48,068 nucleotides of DNA from positions 1 through 48,068 of the forward strand of contig SXSI01000031.1 of NCBI GenBank assembly GCA_005792285.1, written 5' to 3'. The position numbers were made by a program, and so were the translations under genes. The notes under the pieces are model-generated. The model was given only the letters and a program-made list of their open reading frames with translations, made no database searches and had not been told where the DNA came from. Origin of the DNA: Bacteroidota bacterium. Its GTDB lineage: Bacteria; Bacteroidota; Ignavibacteria; UBA10030; UBA8401. Positions 35,086 to 45,171 of this stretch are shown one piece after another. The stretch's first letter is position 1. Each line of letters opens with the position of its first letter.

Positions 35086-36363
35086 TTATTCTGAAGCTAC
35101 TAATTCAGCTTCTTTTTCTTTCATCCAAATATCATATTCTTCTTGAGTTTGAATATTTACATATCCGCGCATTCTGTAATGACCTAATCCGCAAAGTTGC
35201 GCACAAGCCATTTCAATTGGAGTTGCTAATGCGATTGAAATATTTTTTATTCCTGCAATTTTTAATTGTTCAAGTGACAAATCGGTTACAGCAGATCCTT
35301 TAGAAATTGATGCTGAGCTATAATCTTCCCAAAAAATAAAGTAATTCAATTTTGCTTTTTGTCGAGCAGTTACTTGCGAAATATTATTTTGAAGTAATAT
35401 TGAAACAAAGTCATCAATTAATGGAGTTCCCATTGGAACAAGAATATTTCCTGTTGCATCTTCGTAATCTTCAGTTGTTAATAATGTTTGAAGTGCAGGA
35501 TTTACTTTTCTTGCTTTAACTTTCGATATTGAATTATCGACAAGAGCTTTCACATTATCTGCATCTAAAAGCATTCCGCTGTAAAGAACATCATTTCCAT
35601 TTTTAGTTGCATTTTCCATTAAAATATAATTTTTTAAATTTCCACCAGCTGAAATTGTTAATTCTTCAATTTTAGGTAAAATTATATTTTTAGTCGCAGG
35701 TAATTTTGTTAAATCATATGTTTGAATAGTTTCATTTTGAACTTCAAGTGAAGTTTTTATTGGCTTAAACCACATCGGGATTAATTGTCCAGGCATTGCG
35801 TCATGCTTCGCTCTTAAAACTGGAAAGGATAAAGAATGTATAACATCTTTCGAACCCAAATAAATTATTACAGGTTTATTTACCGGAATATTTAATTGAT
35901 TATTTGTAATCACATCATCTTTTGCATCTTCATTTTCTCTATCAATTCCAATTGGATTATCTGCACTAATTAAGGAAACATCCGTTCTTCCGAATTTGCC
36001 ATCAACTCCTGGATAATGAACATTCCAAGCAAACTGTTCTCCGATAATTCGAACGATTGTAGATTCTTCTTTTGCAGGAAACTCAACAACTCTTTCTGCC
36101 CAAAGTGGCATTGCAAATGCAGTTAATAAAATAGTTTCAAAAAATACCAGCGCAACTTCAAGCCATGTTGATGTTTTAGTGGTTACTCCTGTATAATTTG
36201 CAACTGGATTATTAGATTTACGAAATTTATAAATTGAATAATAAAAGAAAACACTCCAACCAATTGCAAGTATGAACATGATCCAATGAATAAGCGCGAG
36301 CATTTCATCTATTTTATATCCATTTTCGGATGCATCTAATGGTAAATTTAAAAATTCTCTCAT
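35086..36363 (-). CDS. coxB: Cytochrome c oxidase subunit II with a long insertion in the CuA domain
   Basis: Carries the CuA centre that receives electrons from cytochrome c. Two N-terminal TM helices (about 22-44 and 67-87) precede the periplasmic cupredoxin domain. The copper ligands are in VIHSLSFP (His176) and CAQLCGLGHYRM (Cys387, Cys391, His395, Met398), so CuA is complete. At 425 residues the protein is about 180 longer than usual. The extra residues lie inside the CuA domain, between the MWFKP strand (197-201) and the ligand loop. The insert includes three degenerate repeats of about 40 residues (about 247-287, 293-335 and 341-381). The start overlaps the preceding small gene (ATGA). 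Confidence 0.95.
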   Translation of the reverse strand: MREFLNLPLDASENGYKIDEMLALIHWIMFILAIGWSVFFYYSIYKFRKSNNPVANYTGVTTKTSTWLEVALVFFETILLTAFAMPLWAERVVEFPAKEESTIVRIIGEQFAWNVHYPGVDGKFGRTDVSLISADNPIGIDRENEDAKDDVITNNQLNIPVNKPVIIYLGSKDVIHSLSFPVLRAKHDAMPGQLIPMWFKPIKTSLEVQNETIQTYDLTKLPATKNIILPKIEELTISAGGNLKNYILMENATKNGNDVLYSGMLLDADNVKALVDNSISKVKARKVNPALQTLLTTEDYEDATGNILVPMGTPLIDDFVSILLQNNISQVTARQKAKLNYFIFWEDYSSASISKGSAVTDLSLEQLKIAGIKNISIALATPIEMACAQLCGLGHYRMRGYVNIQTQEEYDIWMKEKEAELVASE

Positions 36364-36611
36364 AAATTATTTAATTCATTTGTGATTTTTGATTTCAATT
36401 TTTTAATTCTAAACATTACAACTACAAAAAATGATATTATACTTCCAAGAACAACTCCTGTTATTCCTAATAAAGAAATAATTGACAAACTCAATGCATT
36501 TGTTGTTTGAGTTGGTTCGGTTGAACTTATACAAGTTGAACATGCAACCGAAGTTGCTTGAAATATTATTATTACAAAAAATAAAATAAAAAATAACTTG
36601 AAATTTTTCAT
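36360..36611 (-). CDS. Small membrane protein of the oxidase operon (83 residues)
   Basis: A hydrophobic protein with a signal-like N-terminus (about 5-22), a short Cys/Ser/Thr-rich segment (ACSTCISSTEPT) and a second helix (about 42-66) with a basic tail. The ATG at 36609-36611 is preferred because it overlaps the upstream stop as ATGA; a TTG two codons further up is less likely. I do not recognise the family. Its place between two oxidase genes suggests an accessory subunit or assembly factor. The CxxC pair could bind metal, but this is only a possibility. Confidence 0.65.
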   Translation of the reverse strand: MKNFKLFFILFFVIIIFQATSVACSTCISSTEPTQTTNALSLSIISLLGITGVVLGSIISFFVVVMFRIKKLKSKITNELNNL

Positions 36612-36817
36612 GACCAAATACTTATATTTTTTGATTTTCTCAAAAAATAAATTGCATACATAACAAGTGCTGGCATCATTAATAATCCAGCAATGGCAAT
36701 CAACAAATTACTTATTAAATTATTCGCCAAATAAGTTGTAATACCCCAATAAGCTAAACCAATACTTAATACTGCCGATACAGAAATAAATAATACGTGA
36801 AGTGATTTTAAAGACAT
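36608..36817 (-). CDS. Tiny two-helix membrane protein of the oxidase operon (69 residues)
   Basis: Two predicted TM helices (about 5-28 and 35-60) with a short basic C-terminal tail. There is no known motif. It starts one base after the subunit IV gene stop and overlaps the next small gene (ATGA), so it is co-translated with oxidase subunits. Small membrane subunits or assembly proteins of heme-copper oxidases often have this form. The function is not known. Confidence 0.6.
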   Translation of the reverse strand: MSLKSLHVLFISVSAVLSIGLAYWGITTYLANNLISNLLIAIAGLLMMPALVMYAIYFLRKSKNISIWS

Positions 36818-37128: not shown

Positions 37129-37728
37129 TTATAAAAGATAAAGTACTGGGAATAAAAATATCCAAACAAGATCTACGAAATGCCAATAAAGTCCCGCAAT
37201 TTCAATTCTATTTTTAAATCTTTCTGGATTACTTTCCCACATTTTCGAACCAGGAAATAAAAAATAAATATTTACAATCAAACCACCAATTACGTGAAGT
37301 ACGTGCAAACCAGTCATTGTAAAATACAATCCAAGAAAAGTATTTGTTGATGGATACAAATTATGTTCAAATTTAGCAGTGTATTCAAAATATTTAACAA
37401 CTAAAAATGCACATCCGAGTAAAATTGTAAGTAGCATATATTTTCTATATGCCGAAAAATTTTTATCTACAAGTGAAAGCCACGCCATCACCATCGTAAT
37501 ACTTGAAGTAATTAGAAATACAGTATTTAACGCTGCCATTGGTACACTTAAAAAAGAACTTCCAACCGGCCAATTTATTGTACCAACTCTTAAAAAAATA
37601 TAAGTTGAAAATAATGCACCAAAGAGCATAACTTCGGAAGTTAGAAATAACCAAATTCCTAACTTCGCATTATTAACTCCAGTATCTTCTCGTTCTTCAA
37701 TTGTATATGGAATAATTTCCGTGCTCAT
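37129..37728 (-). CDS. coxC: Cytochrome c oxidase subunit III
   Basis: A 199-residue inner-membrane subunit with five TM helices, the short form found in many bacteria. The conserved segments are KLGIWLFLTSEVMLFGALFSTYIFLR, TMTGLHVLHVIGGLI (with the family histidines) and GLYWHFVDLVWIFLFPVLYL at the end. The start ATG at 37726-37728 is preceded by AAAGG and lies one base after the coxA stop. An in-frame extension to 37830 overlapping coxA is rejected. Confidence 0.95.
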   Translation of the reverse strand: MSTEIIPYTIEEREDTGVNNAKLGIWLFLTSEVMLFGALFSTYIFLRVGTINWPVGSSFLSVPMAALNTVFLITSSITMVMAWLSLVDKNFSAYRKYMLLTILLGCAFLVVKYFEYTAKFEHNLYPSTNTFLGLYFTMTGLHVLHVIGGLIVNIYFLFPGSKMWESNPERFKNRIEIAGLYWHFVDLVWIFLFPVLYLL

Positions 37729-37729
37729 A

Positions 37730-39460
37730 TTAAACCTTTTGATTTTGTGGTAAATAATCTGTTGGATGTCCTGGAACACTATATTCGTATGGACCACGAT
37801 AGACAGTTGGTGTAACTTCAAAATTTCCATGTGGAGGAGGAGTTGGTGTTGCCCATTCTAATGTTGTTGATTGCCATGGATTTTCTTCGGACTTCTTCCC
37901 TTTCCACATACTATAAAATAAATTAAAAATAAATATTAGTTGAAATAAAGCAAGCACCCAAGAAAATATCGACATAGTTTCGTTGTAACGAAATACACCT
38001 TGAGCATGAGCATATTGTTCGCCACCATCCCATAATCTTCTGGAAACTCCTGCGAGTCCAACTAAAAACATTGGAAAGAAAATTCCGTTCATACAAATAA
38101 ACGATCCGACAAAATGTATTTTTCCTAATTTTTCATTCATCTTACGACCAGTAAATTTTGGGAACCAAAAATAAATTCCTGCGAAAAGTGCAAAAATAGT
38201 TCCCGGCGCAACTACATAATGAAAATGTCCGATAACATAGTATGTATCATGAAGTGCAATATCAGTTGCATTTAATCCAAGTGGTAATCCAGTTAATCCA
38301 CCAATACCAAACATTGGTAAAAATGCTAATGCAAATAACATTGGAGTGTTAAATCGAATTGATCCTCCCCAAAGTGTAATAAATAAAGTTGTTATAATTA
38401 CAATCGATGGAACTGAAATAATCATAGTTGTTGTTTGGAAGAATGTACTAATTGTAGTTCCCATTCCAGTCATAAACATGTGATGAGCCCAAACTGCAAA
38501 TGACATAAATCCTAAAAACAAAGAAGCATAAACTAATCCACGATATCCCCAAATTGGTTTGCGTGTGTTGTTTGCAATAATTTCTGTTACAACTCCCATT
38601 GCTGGAAGAATTAAAACATAAACTTCTGGATGAGCTAAAAACCAAAATAAATGTTGCCACAAAACTGGAGAACCACCGCCAGTATATTTTAACACTTCAC
38701 CTGAAACAACTAAACCACTTGGCATAAAGAAACTTGTACCAGCAAGTCTATCCATAATTTGCATAACTGCTGCAGCTTCAAGTGCAGGAAATGCTAACAA
38801 TAATAAAAATGAAGTTATAAGCTGAGCCCAAACAAGAAATGGTAATCTAAAATAAGTTAATCCCGGAGCTCGTAGTTGAATAATTGTAACAATAATATTA
38901 ACTGCTCCAAGTAATGAAGAAGTAATTAACAGAAACATTCCAAACAACCAATAAGTTTGTCCAACAGATGCGACTACCGCAAGTGGAGCATATGAAGTCC
39001 AACCTGATGAAGCAGCACCACCGGGTAAAAAGAAACTTGACAACATTACAATACCACCTAAAAAATAAACCCAGTAACTTGCCATATTTAATTTTGGAAA
39101 AGCCATATCGGGAGCGCCAACTTGTAATGGAACTAAATAGTTTGCAAATGCTCCAACTGCTAATGGAACAATTCCAAGAAACACCATTATTGTACCATGC
39201 ATTGCTCCAAGTTGATTATAAAATTCAGGCAACATAATTCCACCAGGCGCATTTGATTCTCCAAACCAACTTCCAATAAATGGAATTGGTTGTTCAGGAT
39301 ATGCAAGTTGCCATCTCATCAACATTACTAAACAAAATCCGAAGAAGAGAAAAATTAAACTTGTTAGCCCATATTGAATTCCGATCATTTTATGATCGGT
39401 AGAAAAAATATATTTCCGCCAAAACGGAAGTTGATGGGAATGTTCGTTATGTGTGCTCAT
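37730..39460 (-). CDS. coxA: Cytochrome c oxidase subunit I (A1-type heme-copper oxidase)
   Basis: The catalytic subunit that reduces oxygen and pumps protons. The 576 residues from the ATG at 39458-39460 form about twelve helices. Ligands visible are the heme a histidine in GAMHGTIMVF, the CuB histidine and cross-linked tyrosine in AHPEVYVLILPA, the CuB pair in VWAHHMF and the heme a3/heme a histidines in YYVIGHFHYVV. HPEVY with its glutamate places it in the A1 class with a D-channel end point. The C-terminal tail has a TPTPPPHGNFEVTP segment common in cytochrome c oxidases of this group. An extension to 39520 is rejected. Confidence 0.97.
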   Translation of the reverse strand: MSTHNEHSHQLPFWRKYIFSTDHKMIGIQYGLTSLIFLFFGFCLVMLMRWQLAYPEQPIPFIGSWFGESNAPGGIMLPEFYNQLGAMHGTIMVFLGIVPLAVGAFANYLVPLQVGAPDMAFPKLNMASYWVYFLGGIVMLSSFFLPGGAASSGWTSYAPLAVVASVGQTYWLFGMFLLITSSLLGAVNIIVTIIQLRAPGLTYFRLPFLVWAQLITSFLLLLAFPALEAAAVMQIMDRLAGTSFFMPSGLVVSGEVLKYTGGGSPVLWQHLFWFLAHPEVYVLILPAMGVVTEIIANNTRKPIWGYRGLVYASLFLGFMSFAVWAHHMFMTGMGTTISTFFQTTTMIISVPSIVIITTLFITLWGGSIRFNTPMLFALAFLPMFGIGGLTGLPLGLNATDIALHDTYYVIGHFHYVVAPGTIFALFAGIYFWFPKFTGRKMNEKLGKIHFVGSFICMNGIFFPMFLVGLAGVSRRLWDGGEQYAHAQGVFRYNETMSIFSWVLALFQLIFIFNLFYSMWKGKKSEENPWQSTTLEWATPTPPPHGNFEVTPTVYRGPYEYSVPGHPTDYLPQNQKV

Positions 39461-39473
39461 GAAGAGATTTTTT

Positions 39474-40160
39474 TTATTTTGCAGAATAATTAAAATCAGC
39501 TGTGACTGGTTTATCTGCAACTGTGATTTTTAATTGTTGAGTCCCATATTTTTCGTGCCATGCTTCAAGCGTATAATTTCCTGCAGGTAATCCTTTAATT
39601 GCAAATGAACCGTTATCATTTGAAACTGCATAGTACGAATTATTTACAACTCCAACATATGCAGACATCCAATTATGAACATCGCATTTAAATTTTACCA
39701 TAACTTCCGGTTTATCAAATTTTTTATTTAACTTCATTCCTTTCATAGGTTGTGCATTATTAAACTGTGTATTACTTTTTGCGAGTGAATGAACATTATG
39801 CAAAGTTGGATCATCATTTAAAATTACAAATGGTTGACCAACTTGTGTGCCCATTACGTGCGGAGTATATTGACATCCTTTTTGACTTAATGTAACTGGC
39901 ACGGTAGGAGCAGCAGTTGGTTTTGCACCTTCTTTTACATAAATGAAAACATTTTTTAAAGTATTATTTGCATTAACAACTACTTCTTCCGATGAAACTG
40001 AAGTTGAATGCATTGCTTTACAAGTTTTATCTGCATCCATTTTCATTTTTGGCATTTTTGGAGATGCTCCTGAAAATGAAATTTTCCCGGTTACATCTGC
40101 GCTAAATACATTGATTGTAAGAACTAAAATTAAACTTACAAATTGCGTTAATCTTAACAT
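39474..40160 (-). CDS. Exported cupredoxin-like protein with a carboxypeptidase-regulatory-like C-terminal domain
   Basis: A 228-residue protein with a Sec signal peptide (about 1-20). The body contains NVFIYVKEGA, CQYTPHV and then NVHS (His124) and KCDVHNWM (Cys159, His162, Met165). That is the His-Cys-His-Met ligand set of a type 1 blue copper site. A C-terminal domain with GSFAIKGLPAGNYTLEAWHEKYG looks like a carboxypeptidase regulatory-like fold. It lies between the octaheme cytochrome and CoxA, so it may move electrons or copper between the bc complex and the oxidase. The copper site is inferred from the ligand spacing. Confidence 0.75.
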   Translation of the reverse strand: MLRLTQFVSLILVLTINVFSADVTGKISFSGASPKMPKMKMDADKTCKAMHSTSVSSEEVVVNANNTLKNVFIYVKEGAKPTAAPTVPVTLSQKGCQYTPHVMGTQVGQPFVILNDDPTLHNVHSLAKSNTQFNNAQPMKGMKLNKKFDKPEVMVKFKCDVHNWMSAYVGVVNNSYYAVSNDNGSFAIKGLPAGNYTLEAWHEKYGTQQLKITVADKPVTADFNYSAK

Positions 40161-40186: not shown

Positions 40187-42829
40187 TTATTTTTTATTTT
40201 TTCCTATTATAAATACATGGTCGCGAATTGCTTCCATTTGTTTTTTTGCGTCGCCTTCTAAAACATCAGGTAATGCGGTTTGTCCATCTGGCCAATATCC
40301 TGGCATCATCGTTCCTGGCTGAATTGCTTGTGGATCTTTCAACCAATCAACAACCCATTCTGGCTTTAAACGTTTTGCAGTTAATGAGAGATTTGGACCT
40401 AAACTACCAGAACTTTCACCTTTCCCTAATATATGACATTTTAAACATTGATATGAATCGAACATTAATTTTCCTTCAGCCAAAGTTGATTTATTTGGTT
40501 GGAATGCTGAATAGTCTCGAAGTCGAAGTTCTTGTTTTGAAACAGCAAGAAAATATTTTGTTAAATCATTAAGTTCATTTTCTGAAAACGAAAAAGTAGG
40601 CATTCTTACTTTTAACCAAGGTCTAATTGGTGATGGACTTTTTATAAATTCATTCAACCAAGGTTCTTGAACTTTTGCACCTTCCATTGTGATCATCGGA
40701 GGTCCCATTGAAGGATCTTCAAGTGTTGCAGAAAAATATGAACCGTGATCTTCAATTTCATGACAATTTATACAAGCGTATCTTGTAATTAATTTTTGTC
40801 CTTGATCTAAATCGCGAATTCTTTGATCAAAAGTTTGCTGATATTTTTTATTTGGTTTATCACCTCTATAACTTAAAAGCAACATTCTCAATAATTTTAT
40901 TTCTTCATCACGGAAATTAAAAACTGGCATTTTTTGTGGAATGCGTTCAGTTTGGAAAAGACGAGAATTATATAATTTTCCATAAACCCAACCATCCCAT
41001 GAATGTTGTACTGCAACTTTTCCATCTTTAATTTCAAATTCAAGTTCACCTTCTTTGTCTAATTCTTTAACATCACCGAAATCCATTTGTTCAACTTTTT
41101 TTCTTCCAAAATCAGAAAGGTTTACACTTATTTTTGATTCTCTTTCCATTCCTTCAATTGCATGACATCCATAACATCCATTTGAGCGAACTAATTTTTC
41201 TCCAAAATCAATTTTTTCTTTTTTATTAATTTCAAGTTTTCTTGAATCTTTATTTCGACTATCACTCATTGTTTGCAAATAGGCAACAATATCTCTTGCT
41301 TCACTATCAGTTAAACGAAGGTTTGGCATTTTTGTTGTCGGATTATAATGACGAGGATTTTTTATCCAATCATAAATAAAATCTGGAGATAATTTTCCGG
41401 AAACATGCGATAACTCCGGCGCAATATCATAACTGGTGTTTCGTTTTTCACGAACTTTTGTTTCGTCACCAATAACGTGACAAGCTTGACAACCAACTTC
41501 ATTAAAAATTAATTTACCTTTAGCAGATGAACCACCTTTATATGAACCATTAGAATTTGCAAATTTAAAATTACTATTTTTTGATTTGTCAAAAAGAAAT
41601 GCAGTTACAGCTTCTGCTTCTTCAGGAAGAAATTTATAATTTGGCATTCTTGTATTTGGGTTGTACGCTTTTGGATTAAGAATCCAATTATAAACCCATT
41701 CTGGTTTTACTTTTGAAGAAACATTTTTTAGTTCAGGACCAATTGGCGGTAAATTTTCATAACCGTCGATTTGGTGACAAGCATAACATCCAACTTCGAG
41801 CATAACTTGTTTTGCTTTTGTAAAATATGGTGCACTCTTTAATGCATTTTGATTTGCGTGGCAAGAATTACATGATGCATATACATCAGTTTTTTTAAGA
41901 AGGGGTGTTTCCCAATAATGATCTTCGTCGCCATGTGCATAACCTGTAGTCAATGCATTTCCTTGTCCGCGATGACAAGTTGTACATCCAAATTTTTCTG
42001 GATTATGAATTTTTAAAAGTTCTGGTAATGGATGAGTTGTAAATGGCTGTGGTGCATCTGCCATTAAAGGCTCTCTACTACCCAAATGACAAGTTTGACA
42101 TCTGTCTACTCTCGCTTTTAATTCACTAAAATTTGTTTTTTCAAAATCATCTATTACAACTTGTTTGATTTCAATTGGCGCTGCGCTAGCTCTTGTTAAT
42201 TTTAATTTAACTTTATCAGCATCAATAAATATTTTTTTAATTTCAGAATTTAATTCAGCTATTTTGTTCGTGTAAGTTGCAAGGAATTCGTTTGCTTTAT
42301 TAATTCTGTTTTGAATTGCAGAAACTGAGTCGGCATATTCGGCAATTGATCTTTCAATTTCTTTTAATTCATCTTTTAAACTTTGGCTTGGAGATCCGCC
42401 GTGAACACCTTTTTTATATTCATAATAAACTGCATCAGATTTACTTCTTGCAAAACTCCATTCACGTGTTGCATCTACATATTCTTGTTGAAGATTTCCA
42501 AGTTCCTCAACTCCATTTTTATATGCTTCATTCTCAAGTGATGACTCTGCTTTTTTTAATTCGACGTGTAAACCTGCAACTGTTGATGAATCAATAAGTG
42601 AAATTAATTCATCGTAATTAGCTTGCAATTTTTGTTGAAGCAAATAATTGTATTCTGACTGATAATCTTTCCAAGGACGACGTGTGATAATTTCATCAAT
42701 AACTGCCCAAGCTGTTGATAAAAATAAAATAATACTTATAATGAGATAAAAATTTGTATAATTTCTATTCTCAATTAGTAAATCAAGTCGTTTCTTAAAA
42801 TTGAAGAGCTCCTTCAGTTTATCCAGCAT
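40187..42829 (-). CDS. Membrane-anchored octaheme cytochrome c
   Basis: An 880-residue electron-transfer protein. One N-terminal TM helix (about 26-44) anchors a periplasmic coiled coil (about 55-215). Eight CxxCH heme motifs follow, with first cysteines at 244, 282, 320, 348, 447, 552, 686 and 795. The last five behave like consecutive class I cytochrome c modules, with repeated PEWVYNWILNP-like and MPNY/MPNL-type Met ligand segments (for example 376-386 and 395-398). It lies directly after the two cytochrome b genes, so it replaces the cytochrome c1/f subunit and can also supply the oxidase. No enzyme active site is evident. The domain borders are by eye. Confidence 0.92.
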   Translation of the reverse strand: MLDKLKELFNFKKRLDLLIENRNYTNFYLIISIILFLSTAWAVIDEIITRRPWKDYQSEYNYLLQQKLQANYDELISLIDSSTVAGLHVELKKAESSLENEAYKNGVEELGNLQQEYVDATREWSFARSKSDAVYYEYKKGVHGGSPSQSLKDELKEIERSIAEYADSVSAIQNRINKANEFLATYTNKIAELNSEIKKIFIDADKVKLKLTRASAAPIEIKQVVIDDFEKTNFSELKARVDRCQTCHLGSREPLMADAPQPFTTHPLPELLKIHNPEKFGCTTCHRGQGNALTTGYAHGDEDHYWETPLLKKTDVYASCNSCHANQNALKSAPYFTKAKQVMLEVGCYACHQIDGYENLPPIGPELKNVSSKVKPEWVYNWILNPKAYNPNTRMPNYKFLPEEAEAVTAFLFDKSKNSNFKFANSNGSYKGGSSAKGKLIFNEVGCQACHVIGDETKVREKRNTSYDIAPELSHVSGKLSPDFIYDWIKNPRHYNPTTKMPNLRLTDSEARDIVAYLQTMSDSRNKDSRKLEINKKEKIDFGEKLVRSNGCYGCHAIEGMERESKISVNLSDFGRKKVEQMDFGDVKELDKEGELEFEIKDGKVAVQHSWDGWVYGKLYNSRLFQTERIPQKMPVFNFRDEEIKLLRMLLLSYRGDKPNKKYQQTFDQRIRDLDQGQKLITRYACINCHEIEDHGSYFSATLEDPSMGPPMITMEGAKVQEPWLNEFIKSPSPIRPWLKVRMPTFSFSENELNDLTKYFLAVSKQELRLRDYSAFQPNKSTLAEGKLMFDSYQCLKCHILGKGESSGSLGPNLSLTAKRLKPEWVVDWLKDPQAIQPGTMMPGYWPDGQTALPDVLEGDAKKQMEAIRDHVFIIGKNKK

Positions 42830-42863: not shown

Positions 42864-43769
42864 TTAAATATTGAACCATGGTGTAACCCAAAAATATTTA
42901 ATTGGATAAGCTCCAAAAATCGGAGGAAGAAGTCGTAAAGACATTTTTAAAACAACAAATCCCATTCCAAGAAAAAGTGCCGAAGTTGTCCAATATCTTA
43001 TAGGTCCCATTAATTTAAAAAGTTCTGTTTTTTTAAATTTATTGTAATGCCAACCACCGAGAATTCCAAAAAATCCAGTTACAAAAGTAAATCCAAATAA
43101 TGTAGCCCAAATATTTAAACTATTGTCGGGTAACTTAGTTGGTATTCCAATTAATTCTGAGAGATCGATATTATTTAGAACTACAACTTTGTGCGTGTCC
43201 CAAAATTCCCAAGGCAAAAAGAAATTCCATCCAGGTCCTCGTAAAAATGTTCCGAGAATAATTAACGCAATCCACAAAATTAAAAATCCAAAATAGTAAG
43301 TTAAAATTGCAAATTTTCTATCTTTAAAAGTGTAGTAGCCATTTCCTTTTGGATTAACATCAATATATGGAATTGCCATGAGACCAATAATAATTATACT
43401 TGGAAGCATAACGCCTGCAATCCAAGGATCGAAATAAACAAGTAATTCTTGAAGACCAAGAAAATACCATGGTGCTTTCGATGGATTTGGAGTTAAGGAA
43501 GGATCTGCAGCTTGTTCAAGTGGTGCATCAATTGTAATTGACCATACTGCTAGAATTGCAAATACAATTAACGTTCCTAAAAATTCAACTCGAACTAAAT
43601 ATGGCCAAACTTGAATTTTATCATCGAGTTTTGCTTCATCAGGAATTTCTTGTGAATCATTTTTTCTAGCTTTTTTAAATGCGAACCAAGTATAAAATAC
43701 AACTAAAAATAAAAGTCCAACAATTGGAATGTTGTCTGGTTTTGTAATTATCTCTAAAAAGTATTTCAT
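42864..43769 (-). CDS. Cytochrome b C-terminal subunit (subunit IV-like, extended)
   Basis: A 301-residue inner-membrane protein equivalent to the C-terminal half of cytochrome b, with an additional N-terminal helix (about 10-31). The quinol-site loop is SKAPWYFLGLQELLVYFDPW, where the usual PEWY is APWY, as seen in several bacterial bc complexes. About five more helices follow. It starts two bases after the N-terminal cytochrome b gene, and both together form the quinol-oxidising cytochrome b core. No heme ligands are in this half, as expected. Confidence 0.9.
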   Translation of the reverse strand: MKYFLEIITKPDNIPIVGLLFLVVFYTWFAFKKARKNDSQEIPDEAKLDDKIQVWPYLVRVEFLGTLIVFAILAVWSITIDAPLEQAADPSLTPNPSKAPWYFLGLQELLVYFDPWIAGVMLPSIIIIGLMAIPYIDVNPKGNGYYTFKDRKFAILTYYFGFLILWIALIILGTFLRGPGWNFFLPWEFWDTHKVVVLNNIDLSELIGIPTKLPDNSLNIWATLFGFTFVTGFFGILGGWHYNKFKKTELFKLMGPIRYWTTSALFLGMGFVVLKMSLRLLPPIFGAYPIKYFWVTPWFNI

Positions 43770-43771
43770 TT

Positions 43772-44551
43772 TTAAAAAGTTTTTTTAGTTGTATCCGGTC
43801 CTGAAATTCCACCATCTTTTCTTATTCGCCAAAAATGAACCACCATAAATATTGCAGCGATCAATGGAAGAAAAATACAATGACCTACATAAAAGCGAAG
43901 TAAAGTTGGTGGACCAACTTGAGTTCCACCAAGTAAAAGAAATCTAATATCATTATCAATTCTCATTCCGAGTTCTGGTCCGAATGGTCCTTCGTGACCA
44001 ATTAGTGGAGTTGCTCGAGCCATGTTTGTACCAACTGTTACAGCCCAAATTGAAAGTTGGTCCCACGGTAATAAATATCCTGTGAAGCTTAATAAAAAAG
44101 TTAATACTAAAAGTAAAACACCAATAACCCAATTAAATTCTCGTGGTGGTTTATATGAGCCGGTTAAAAATACTCTGAACATATGAAGCATTACTGTAAT
44201 TACCATTGCATGTGCAGCCCAACGATGCATGTTTCTTACAAATGGTCCGAATGCAACATCGTTCATTAAATATTTCATGTCCTCGTATGCATATTGCGCA
44301 GTTGGACGATAGTAAAACATTAAAATGACTCCAGTGAGTGTAAGAATTAAAAATAATAAAAATGTTATTCCACCCATTCCCCATGTAAAACCAATATTGG
44401 TAGCGTGTCTTGGAATTCTTACAGGATGTAAATGAAGAAAAACATTATCTACAATTTGAAGTGCTCTGTTACGTTGAGTATCATCGTACTTATGTCGGAA
44501 AATAGATTTGTAAATTTCCGACTCTCTAAATTTTTTCATTGGGCTTATCAT
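43772..44551 (-). CDS. Cytochrome b N-terminal subunit (b6-like)
   Basis: A 259-residue inner-membrane protein with four TM helices and two b hemes. The ligand pairs are in [18 protein letters not shown] (first and last histidines) and [18 protein letters not shown]. The latter has the longer, b6-type spacing. [20 protein letters not shown] is the conserved Qo-side block. No Cys is present at the place where b6f binds its extra covalent heme. The ATG at 44549-44551 has a GGAG Shine-Dalgarno eight bases upstream; a longer frame to 44614 would overlap the Rieske gene. Confidence 0.93.
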
Positions 44552-44574
44552 TCTAATTTCTCCTTTGCACTTAA

Positions 44575-45171
44575 TTACGCAGTAAATCCGAAATAAGAAC
44601 CTTCTTTGCCCCACTCACCCTTTTCGTAGAGGAATTTAATACTTAGGTCAACTTCAATCTCACCATCTTCAGTAATTGAAATTGAAGCTCTTTCAAGTGG
44701 ACGAGGTGTTGGACCTTCGAAGTTTACACCATTTTTATAGTAACCACTTCCATGACAAGGACATTTAAATTTTTCTTCTGTTGGAAGCCAACGTGGAGTA
44801 CAACCTAAGTGTGTACAAATTGCTATCAATGCATAAAATCCAGTTACTTCTCGTATAATCCAAATTCCCTTTTCAATATATTTTTCACTGACTTCACCAA
44901 GTACATAATCATTTGGTAAGCCAACTTTAAATTTTTTGGTAGGTTCAAATAATATTCTTGGGAACATCATTCGCAAAGTTCCGATTGTAGAAATTCCAAT
45001 GAAACCAAAAAATGCTAACCATGCGGAATATGAGAAGAAATTTTTTCTTCCCATTCGCCATAAACCAGGGTCATTTTCCGGAGTTCGATCCTGTTTTGGT
45101 TTTCGTGGTGCTGGTGTTTCTGAAATTTTTAGTTCAGGTTTATCTTCTGGTGTTTGTTCTTCAGTTGTCAT
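44575..45171 (-). CDS. Rieske iron-sulfur protein
   Basis: The 2Fe-2S subunit of the quinol-oxidising bc-type complex. The 198 residues have a charged Pro/Lys-rich N-terminus, a TM helix (about 46-68) and the cluster-binding loops CTHLGC (119-124) and CPCHGSGY (137-144). Both His ligands and the disulfide cysteines are present. It follows the ferredoxin gene by 19 bases and precedes cytochrome b by 23. Confidence 0.95.

Follow-up and report, generated by a model that had tools for sequence, protein, structure and literature searches.

A cytochrome c oxidase subunit II with an insert of three BBM2-like units in its CuA domain

The oxidase locus

The window, by which is meant the whole stretch of DNA analysed (48,068 nucleotides, contig SXSI01000031.1 of assembly GCA_005792285.1), comes from a member of the class Ignavibacteria and carries genes for a bc complex and a cytochrome c oxidase on its minus strand. 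Their order is ferredoxin, Rieske protein, split cytochrome b, octaheme cytochrome, a secreted protein of 228 aa, coxA, coxC, coxD, two small proteins, coxB, ctaA, ctaB, an ABC pair and SCO, where the names SCO, ctaA, ctaB and ABC pair were assigned by eye. The features needed for what follows are these:

35086-36363, minus strand: coxB, cytochrome c oxidase subunit II, 425 aa
36819-37169, minus strand: coxD, downstream of coxA
37129-37830, minus strand: coxC, downstream of coxA
37730-39520, minus strand: coxA, subunit I
40187-42829, minus strand: octaheme cytochrome c, 880 aa with eight CxxCH motifs, a candidate electron donor
42864-45171, minus strand: bc complex, split cytochrome b and Rieske protein
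42864-43769 and 43772-44614, minus strand: the two parts of the split cytochrome b
44575-45171, minus strand: Rieske protein
CoxB residues 15-49 and 64-92: two N-terminal transmembrane helices, followed by the CuA domain
35836-35838, minus strand: CuA ligand His176, invariant in 26/26
35170-35205, minus strand: CuA ligand loop C387-AQL-C391-GLG-H395-YR-M398, ligands invariant

Directly upstream of coxB (36360-36617) lies a gene for a membrane protein of 85 aa that contains an ACSTC motif and for which a Pfam scan gave no match; fragments of an ACPxCYG type were seen at a comparable place in L042, L043, L045 and L050.

CoxB has in common with its family (PF00116, TIGR02866) the transmembrane helices, the CuA ligands and an operon with coxA, coxC and coxD, but differs from it in that an insert of about 180 residues splits the CuA domain. 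A preliminary description of this DNA had read the copper ligands as complete, and every one of them was found: His176, Cys387, Cys391, His395 and Met398 are invariant across the 26 of 26 aligned relatives, with Gln389 at the position of the carbonyl ligand. The genes for subunits I and III are neighbours of coxB. Between His176 and Cys387 lie 210 residues, where the canonical motif HX34CXEXCX3HX2M, as given in the accessible part of PMC9145763, has 34. The Pfam COX2 profile (PF00116) matches CoxB with an E of 6.4e-9 and 36.2 bits, passing its gathering score of 22, and TIGR02866 reaches 111.6 bits, under a cut-off of 147.7 that is a score threshold and no biological feature. The match to TIGR02866 falls into two stretches, probably a result of the interruption of the domain by the insert.

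The insert and its three units

The insert occupies a CuA-domain hairpin that links the MWFKP strand to the Cys loop, and consists of a short linker and three beta-beta-alpha-beta units of about 46 aa each:

35215-35763, minus strand: insert, residues 201-383, without Cys and without His
Residues 201-242: linker part of the insert, a short helix and strands
35506-35637, minus strand: unit A, residues 243-286; E 6.2e-14 with this copy included in the profile, i-E 0.0068 with the independent profile
35359-35493, minus strand: unit B, residues 291-335; E 9.7e-16 with this copy included in the profile, i-E 5.9e-7 with the independent profile
35230-35340, minus strand: unit C, degenerate, residues 342-378; E 7.1e-4 with this copy outside the profile, i-E 0.035 with the independent profile

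The stretch that separates the MWFKP strand from the Cys loop measures 184 residues in CoxB and 8-13 in four unit-free relatives, which agrees with the earlier estimate of about 180 residues where a normal CoxB has about ten, and the position inside the CuA domain had also been given correctly. As the insert contains neither Cys nor His and shows no heme motif, it is expected to take no part in redox chemistry or in the binding of metal or heme.

Self-comparison had been proposed as the check on three repeats, and it upheld this only in part. Self-alignment shows units A and B to be repeats, with a score of 51 against 20.5 +/- 4.1 for shuffled sequences (0 of 5000 shuffles reach 51), whereas unit C is at the level of the shuffles: the B-C score of 26 (18.7 shuffled) was reached by 251 of 5000, and the A-C score of 21 (19.8 shuffled) by 1825 of 5000. 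Unit C fails here because the copy in this CoxB has lost about four residues. It is nevertheless counted as a unit, since a profile built from 13 one-unit relatives, and so independent of this CoxB, matches the protein three times. The same profile finds three tandem copies, spaced by about 47-49 residues, in all eight three-unit proteins, and the existence of three units as such is therefore borne out. Six of these proteins (L003-L008) give three matches each with i-E 5e-5 or better, while units A and C of CoxB and of the sister protein L002 give weak matches (i-E 0.007 to 0.036); no match was obtained with this profile in the unit-free L011 and L015. The place of unit C is that of the single unit in one-unit relatives.

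Structure prediction of CoxB alone, which the preliminary description had suggested, points to the same arrangement, with AlphaFold2 giving three alpha/beta units whose pLDDT is about 95-98, and beta-beta-alpha-beta units in both of two models (mean pLDDT 92.0 and 94.3). Scans of the insert and of single units against Pfam and NCBIfam returned no curated family above its cut-off, and weak matches of rpoC type.

The insert is under purifying selection that is looser than that on the core of the protein. In three pairs of sequences its pS/pN values were 0.446/0.238, 0.636/0.100 and 0.703/0.300, those of the CoxB core in the same pairs being 0.660/0.173, 0.602/0.068 and 0.801/0.145.

Resemblance to RNA polymerase modules

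The likeness to a repeated element of RNA polymerase, noticed at the outset by eye, has been confirmed by both sequence profile and predicted fold. When the unit profile was compared with 177,635 PDB sequences, the top 14 matches were RpoC (E 4.5e-5 to 2.3e-4), followed by a helicase at E 0.0011 as the first match other than RpoC, and then by further RpoC and RpoB. In the genomes of relatives the profile matches frames of RpoB and RpoC size, and within the same class it finds RpoB/RpoC in four proteins, named by eye from length and sequence, at i-E 1.1e-8 to 3.1e-5. A Foldseek search with the insert model gave 49 matches at E <= 0.001, and RNA polymerase stood in 50 of 50 rows among the matches listed. 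VIA-align, which re-examined the matches that Foldseek had listed, placed the predicted insert on E. coli RpoB 226-348 with a modest Z of 9.1 and 2.1 A over 63 residues, a region that overlaps the beta-i4 stretch (225-343). The modules BBM1 and BBM2 are said to have been defined from sequence originally by Iyer et al. According to the accessible portion of PMC2939025, residues 225-343 of E. coli RpoB (beta-i4) comprise two tandem BBM2 modules, and beta-i4 is predicted to hold from one to six BBM2 copies across bacteria.

We therefore describe the units as BBM2-like, in the sense that they resemble modules of the RNA polymerase large subunits in sequence profile and in predicted fold. As far as beta-i4 is described in that portion of PMC2939025 and in PDB 3lti, the likeness extends to the size of the module, its beta-beta-alpha-beta order, its repetition in tandem, its insertion into a host domain and its sequence profile; the differences are that the host there is RNA polymerase and here the periplasmic copper domain of an oxidase, and that E. 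coli has two copies and this CoxB three. Nor is the module confined to RNA polymerase, because MoeA/gephyrin (PDB 2nqn, 2fu3) matches the fold of the units at Z 8.3-8.5, almost equal to RpoB, although these are molybdenum-cofactor enzymes and have no repeat array in a respiratory protein. This closeness of MoeA, the helicase at E 0.0011 and a length of only 46 residues could mean that a short beta-beta-alpha-beta motif arose by convergence and not by homology, a reading that would be compatible with a docking role. We think it unlikely, as separate searches by sequence and by structure each rank RNA polymerase subunits first, and the unit profile recovers RpoB/RpoC within this very class. A comparison with the rpoC of the same genome is impossible, since a PF04998 search finds no RpoC in this assembly, which is 95.6% complete. 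The whole CoxB model had no match at E <= 0.001 in a viral fold library.

Distribution and evolution of the units

Relatives of the same order have three, two, one or no units, all at one site. A CoxB match at E <= 1e-5 is present in 27 of 60 near genomes, and among 26 full CoxB proteins from these (our own included) eight have three units, one has two, 13 have one and four have none. In the best 80 of 572 named records five have three units, one has two, 12 have one, 61 have none and one (L057) is left out of the unit counts as its frame is broken in the record; apart from the broken reading frame, L057 is a CoxB of three-unit type. The unit-bearing records among these 80 are titled Ignavibacteria, Bacteroidetes or Chlorobi, with one Verrucomicrobia (L062). 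Across the class, 36 of 391 genomes possess a frame of CoxB length (256-558 aa) with units, three units being present in 11; for 22 of these genomes the sequence of the protein itself was read, and the figure of 36 omits four longer frames (G013, G061, G097 and G150). The preliminary description had asked whether the insert is shared by, and commonly described for, CoxB of the group. It is common among relatives, but a literature search, with most subscription papers outside its coverage, returned no account of such an insert, nor of BBM2 within an oxidase.

Since records from Acidobacteria and Verrucomicrobia contain homologues that lack the units, the insert would seem to be a derived feature. 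In a tree of the units (46 columns) unit A of this genus groups with unit A of L003 (support 100), while in a tree of the CoxB core, for which 89 of 106 proteins were used after removal of L041, L057, L118 and 14 identical cores, this genus adjoins one-unit genomes of family f1 (100). The conflict between the trees may reflect three ancestral units followed by losses, or an exchange of inserts, and we prefer neither reading. L062, the record titled Verrucomicrobia, has a one-unit CoxB and an octaheme cytochrome of 1201 aa, and its core groups with a CoxB of Neomarinimicrobiota.

A copy number of 0-3, an insert that evolves faster than the core, the decay of unit C here and the occurrence of the module in unrelated proteins might all be expected of a mobile module that is merely tolerated on a surface loop, where it is gained, multiplied and lost as nearly neutral decoration and has no specific partner. 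Such an origin for the pattern seems improbable to us, given the purifying selection in the three pairs and the retention of units in 36 of 391 genomes of the class, as judged by frame length.

Co-occurrence with the octaheme cytochrome

Of the 22 genomes with units (our own included), 21 encode a full-length octaheme cytochrome, as does one of the four without; this count ignores shared ancestry, and among the four unit-free genomes two have a completeness of only 62% and 77%. The Fisher p of 0.006 assumes independent genomes, an assumption that does not hold here, and no weight is placed on it. Octaheme homologues of at least 46% identity and full or near full length occur in 20 of 21 searched unit genomes, as well as in this genome. 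Unit-free oxidases living with octaheme cytochromes are also found (G034, and outside the class L088 and L114), and G039 has a unit together with an octaheme match that is only partial and 32% identical. These cases, and the variation from no copies to three, indicate that the insert is not needed for pairing with an octaheme cytochrome as such. In the three-unit family f3 the bc-octaheme genes and the cox genes are at separate places. The net charges of insert (-4) and octaheme (0) gave no clear complementarity.

The octaheme is conserved while the unit copy number varies, and this could indicate that the units bind something else, with the octaheme irrelevant to them. The partner might be another oxidase complex, or else an accessory or assembly protein of the oxidase, such as one that delivers copper or the small ACxxC-type protein encoded next to coxB. 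The gene directly upstream of coxB and the similar fragments in L042, L043, L045 and L050 could be taken in the same sense. However, no partner of this kind was found, nothing ties the small membrane protein to the units, and we regard this explanation as rather unlikely.

Proposed role of the array

Docking of the octaheme cytochrome on the units is a plausible candidate role, with which the co-occurrence fits. It is proposed that the tandem BBM2-like array is a periplasmic extension of CoxB for partner binding, most likely of the octaheme of the bc complex, a proposal for which we see an about even chance. The three units would form a rigid extension of subunit II, in the surface hairpin just ahead of the Cys loop, and this would bind the octaheme of the bc complex, whose genes share the cluster with those of the oxidase, or an accessory subunit. 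Electrons could then pass from the Rieske protein to the octaheme and on to CuA in a stable assembly, and not via a diffusing cytochrome, with the number of units setting the reach or area of the contact. Docking is favoured by the series of three, two, one and no units at one site and by a pN below pS in the insert in all three pairs. The series in particular suggests that the units serve as an added surface by which partner proteins are gripped, and stable folded modules next to CuA would suit such a contact.

By analogy, the nearest precedent found for the insert is CtaC of the bcc-aa3 supercomplex of Corynebacterium glutamicum, whose charged cluster was reportedly first described in Sakamoto 2001. 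In the accessible parts of two papers, subunit II of this species is described as carrying an additional cluster of charges near the cytochrome c site, with a proposed contact to the second heme of the diheme cytochrome c1 (PMC5040959), and the supercomplex as having a static electron path through FeS, the QcrC hemes and CuA (PMC8795186). An extra segment near the cytochrome c site and a direct multiheme donor would be common to both, but the segment there is a charged loop and here an array of predicted folded modules.

More tentatively, and with more doubt than belief, it might be supposed that an insert module of RNA polymerase was recruited into the oxidase as a mobile clamp of 0-3 copies which holds the bc-octaheme on CuA, giving Ignavibacteria a supercomplex without mobile cytochrome c, and that it was recruited into other surface proteins also. 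Apart from this reading, the insert would already place a module best known from the transcription machinery outside the cytosol, in a respiratory enzyme. The natural series of 0, 1, 2 and 3 units beside CuA makes a possible coupling of bc complex and oxidase without soluble cytochrome c directly testable.

The module in other proteins

BBM2-like units were also seen away from CoxB. This genome encodes a TonB-dependent receptor (L123/L205, named by eye, at about 23140-25990 of contig C33) with such a unit, and its homologue in another genome of the family (L203, in G013) has one in the same loop. L137 and L147 are small proteins of about 116-122 aa with one unit each, beside genes that we take to be of HDOD type, and in L204 (G097, contig C23), a transposase-like protein named by eye, a BBM2-like unit lies near the end.
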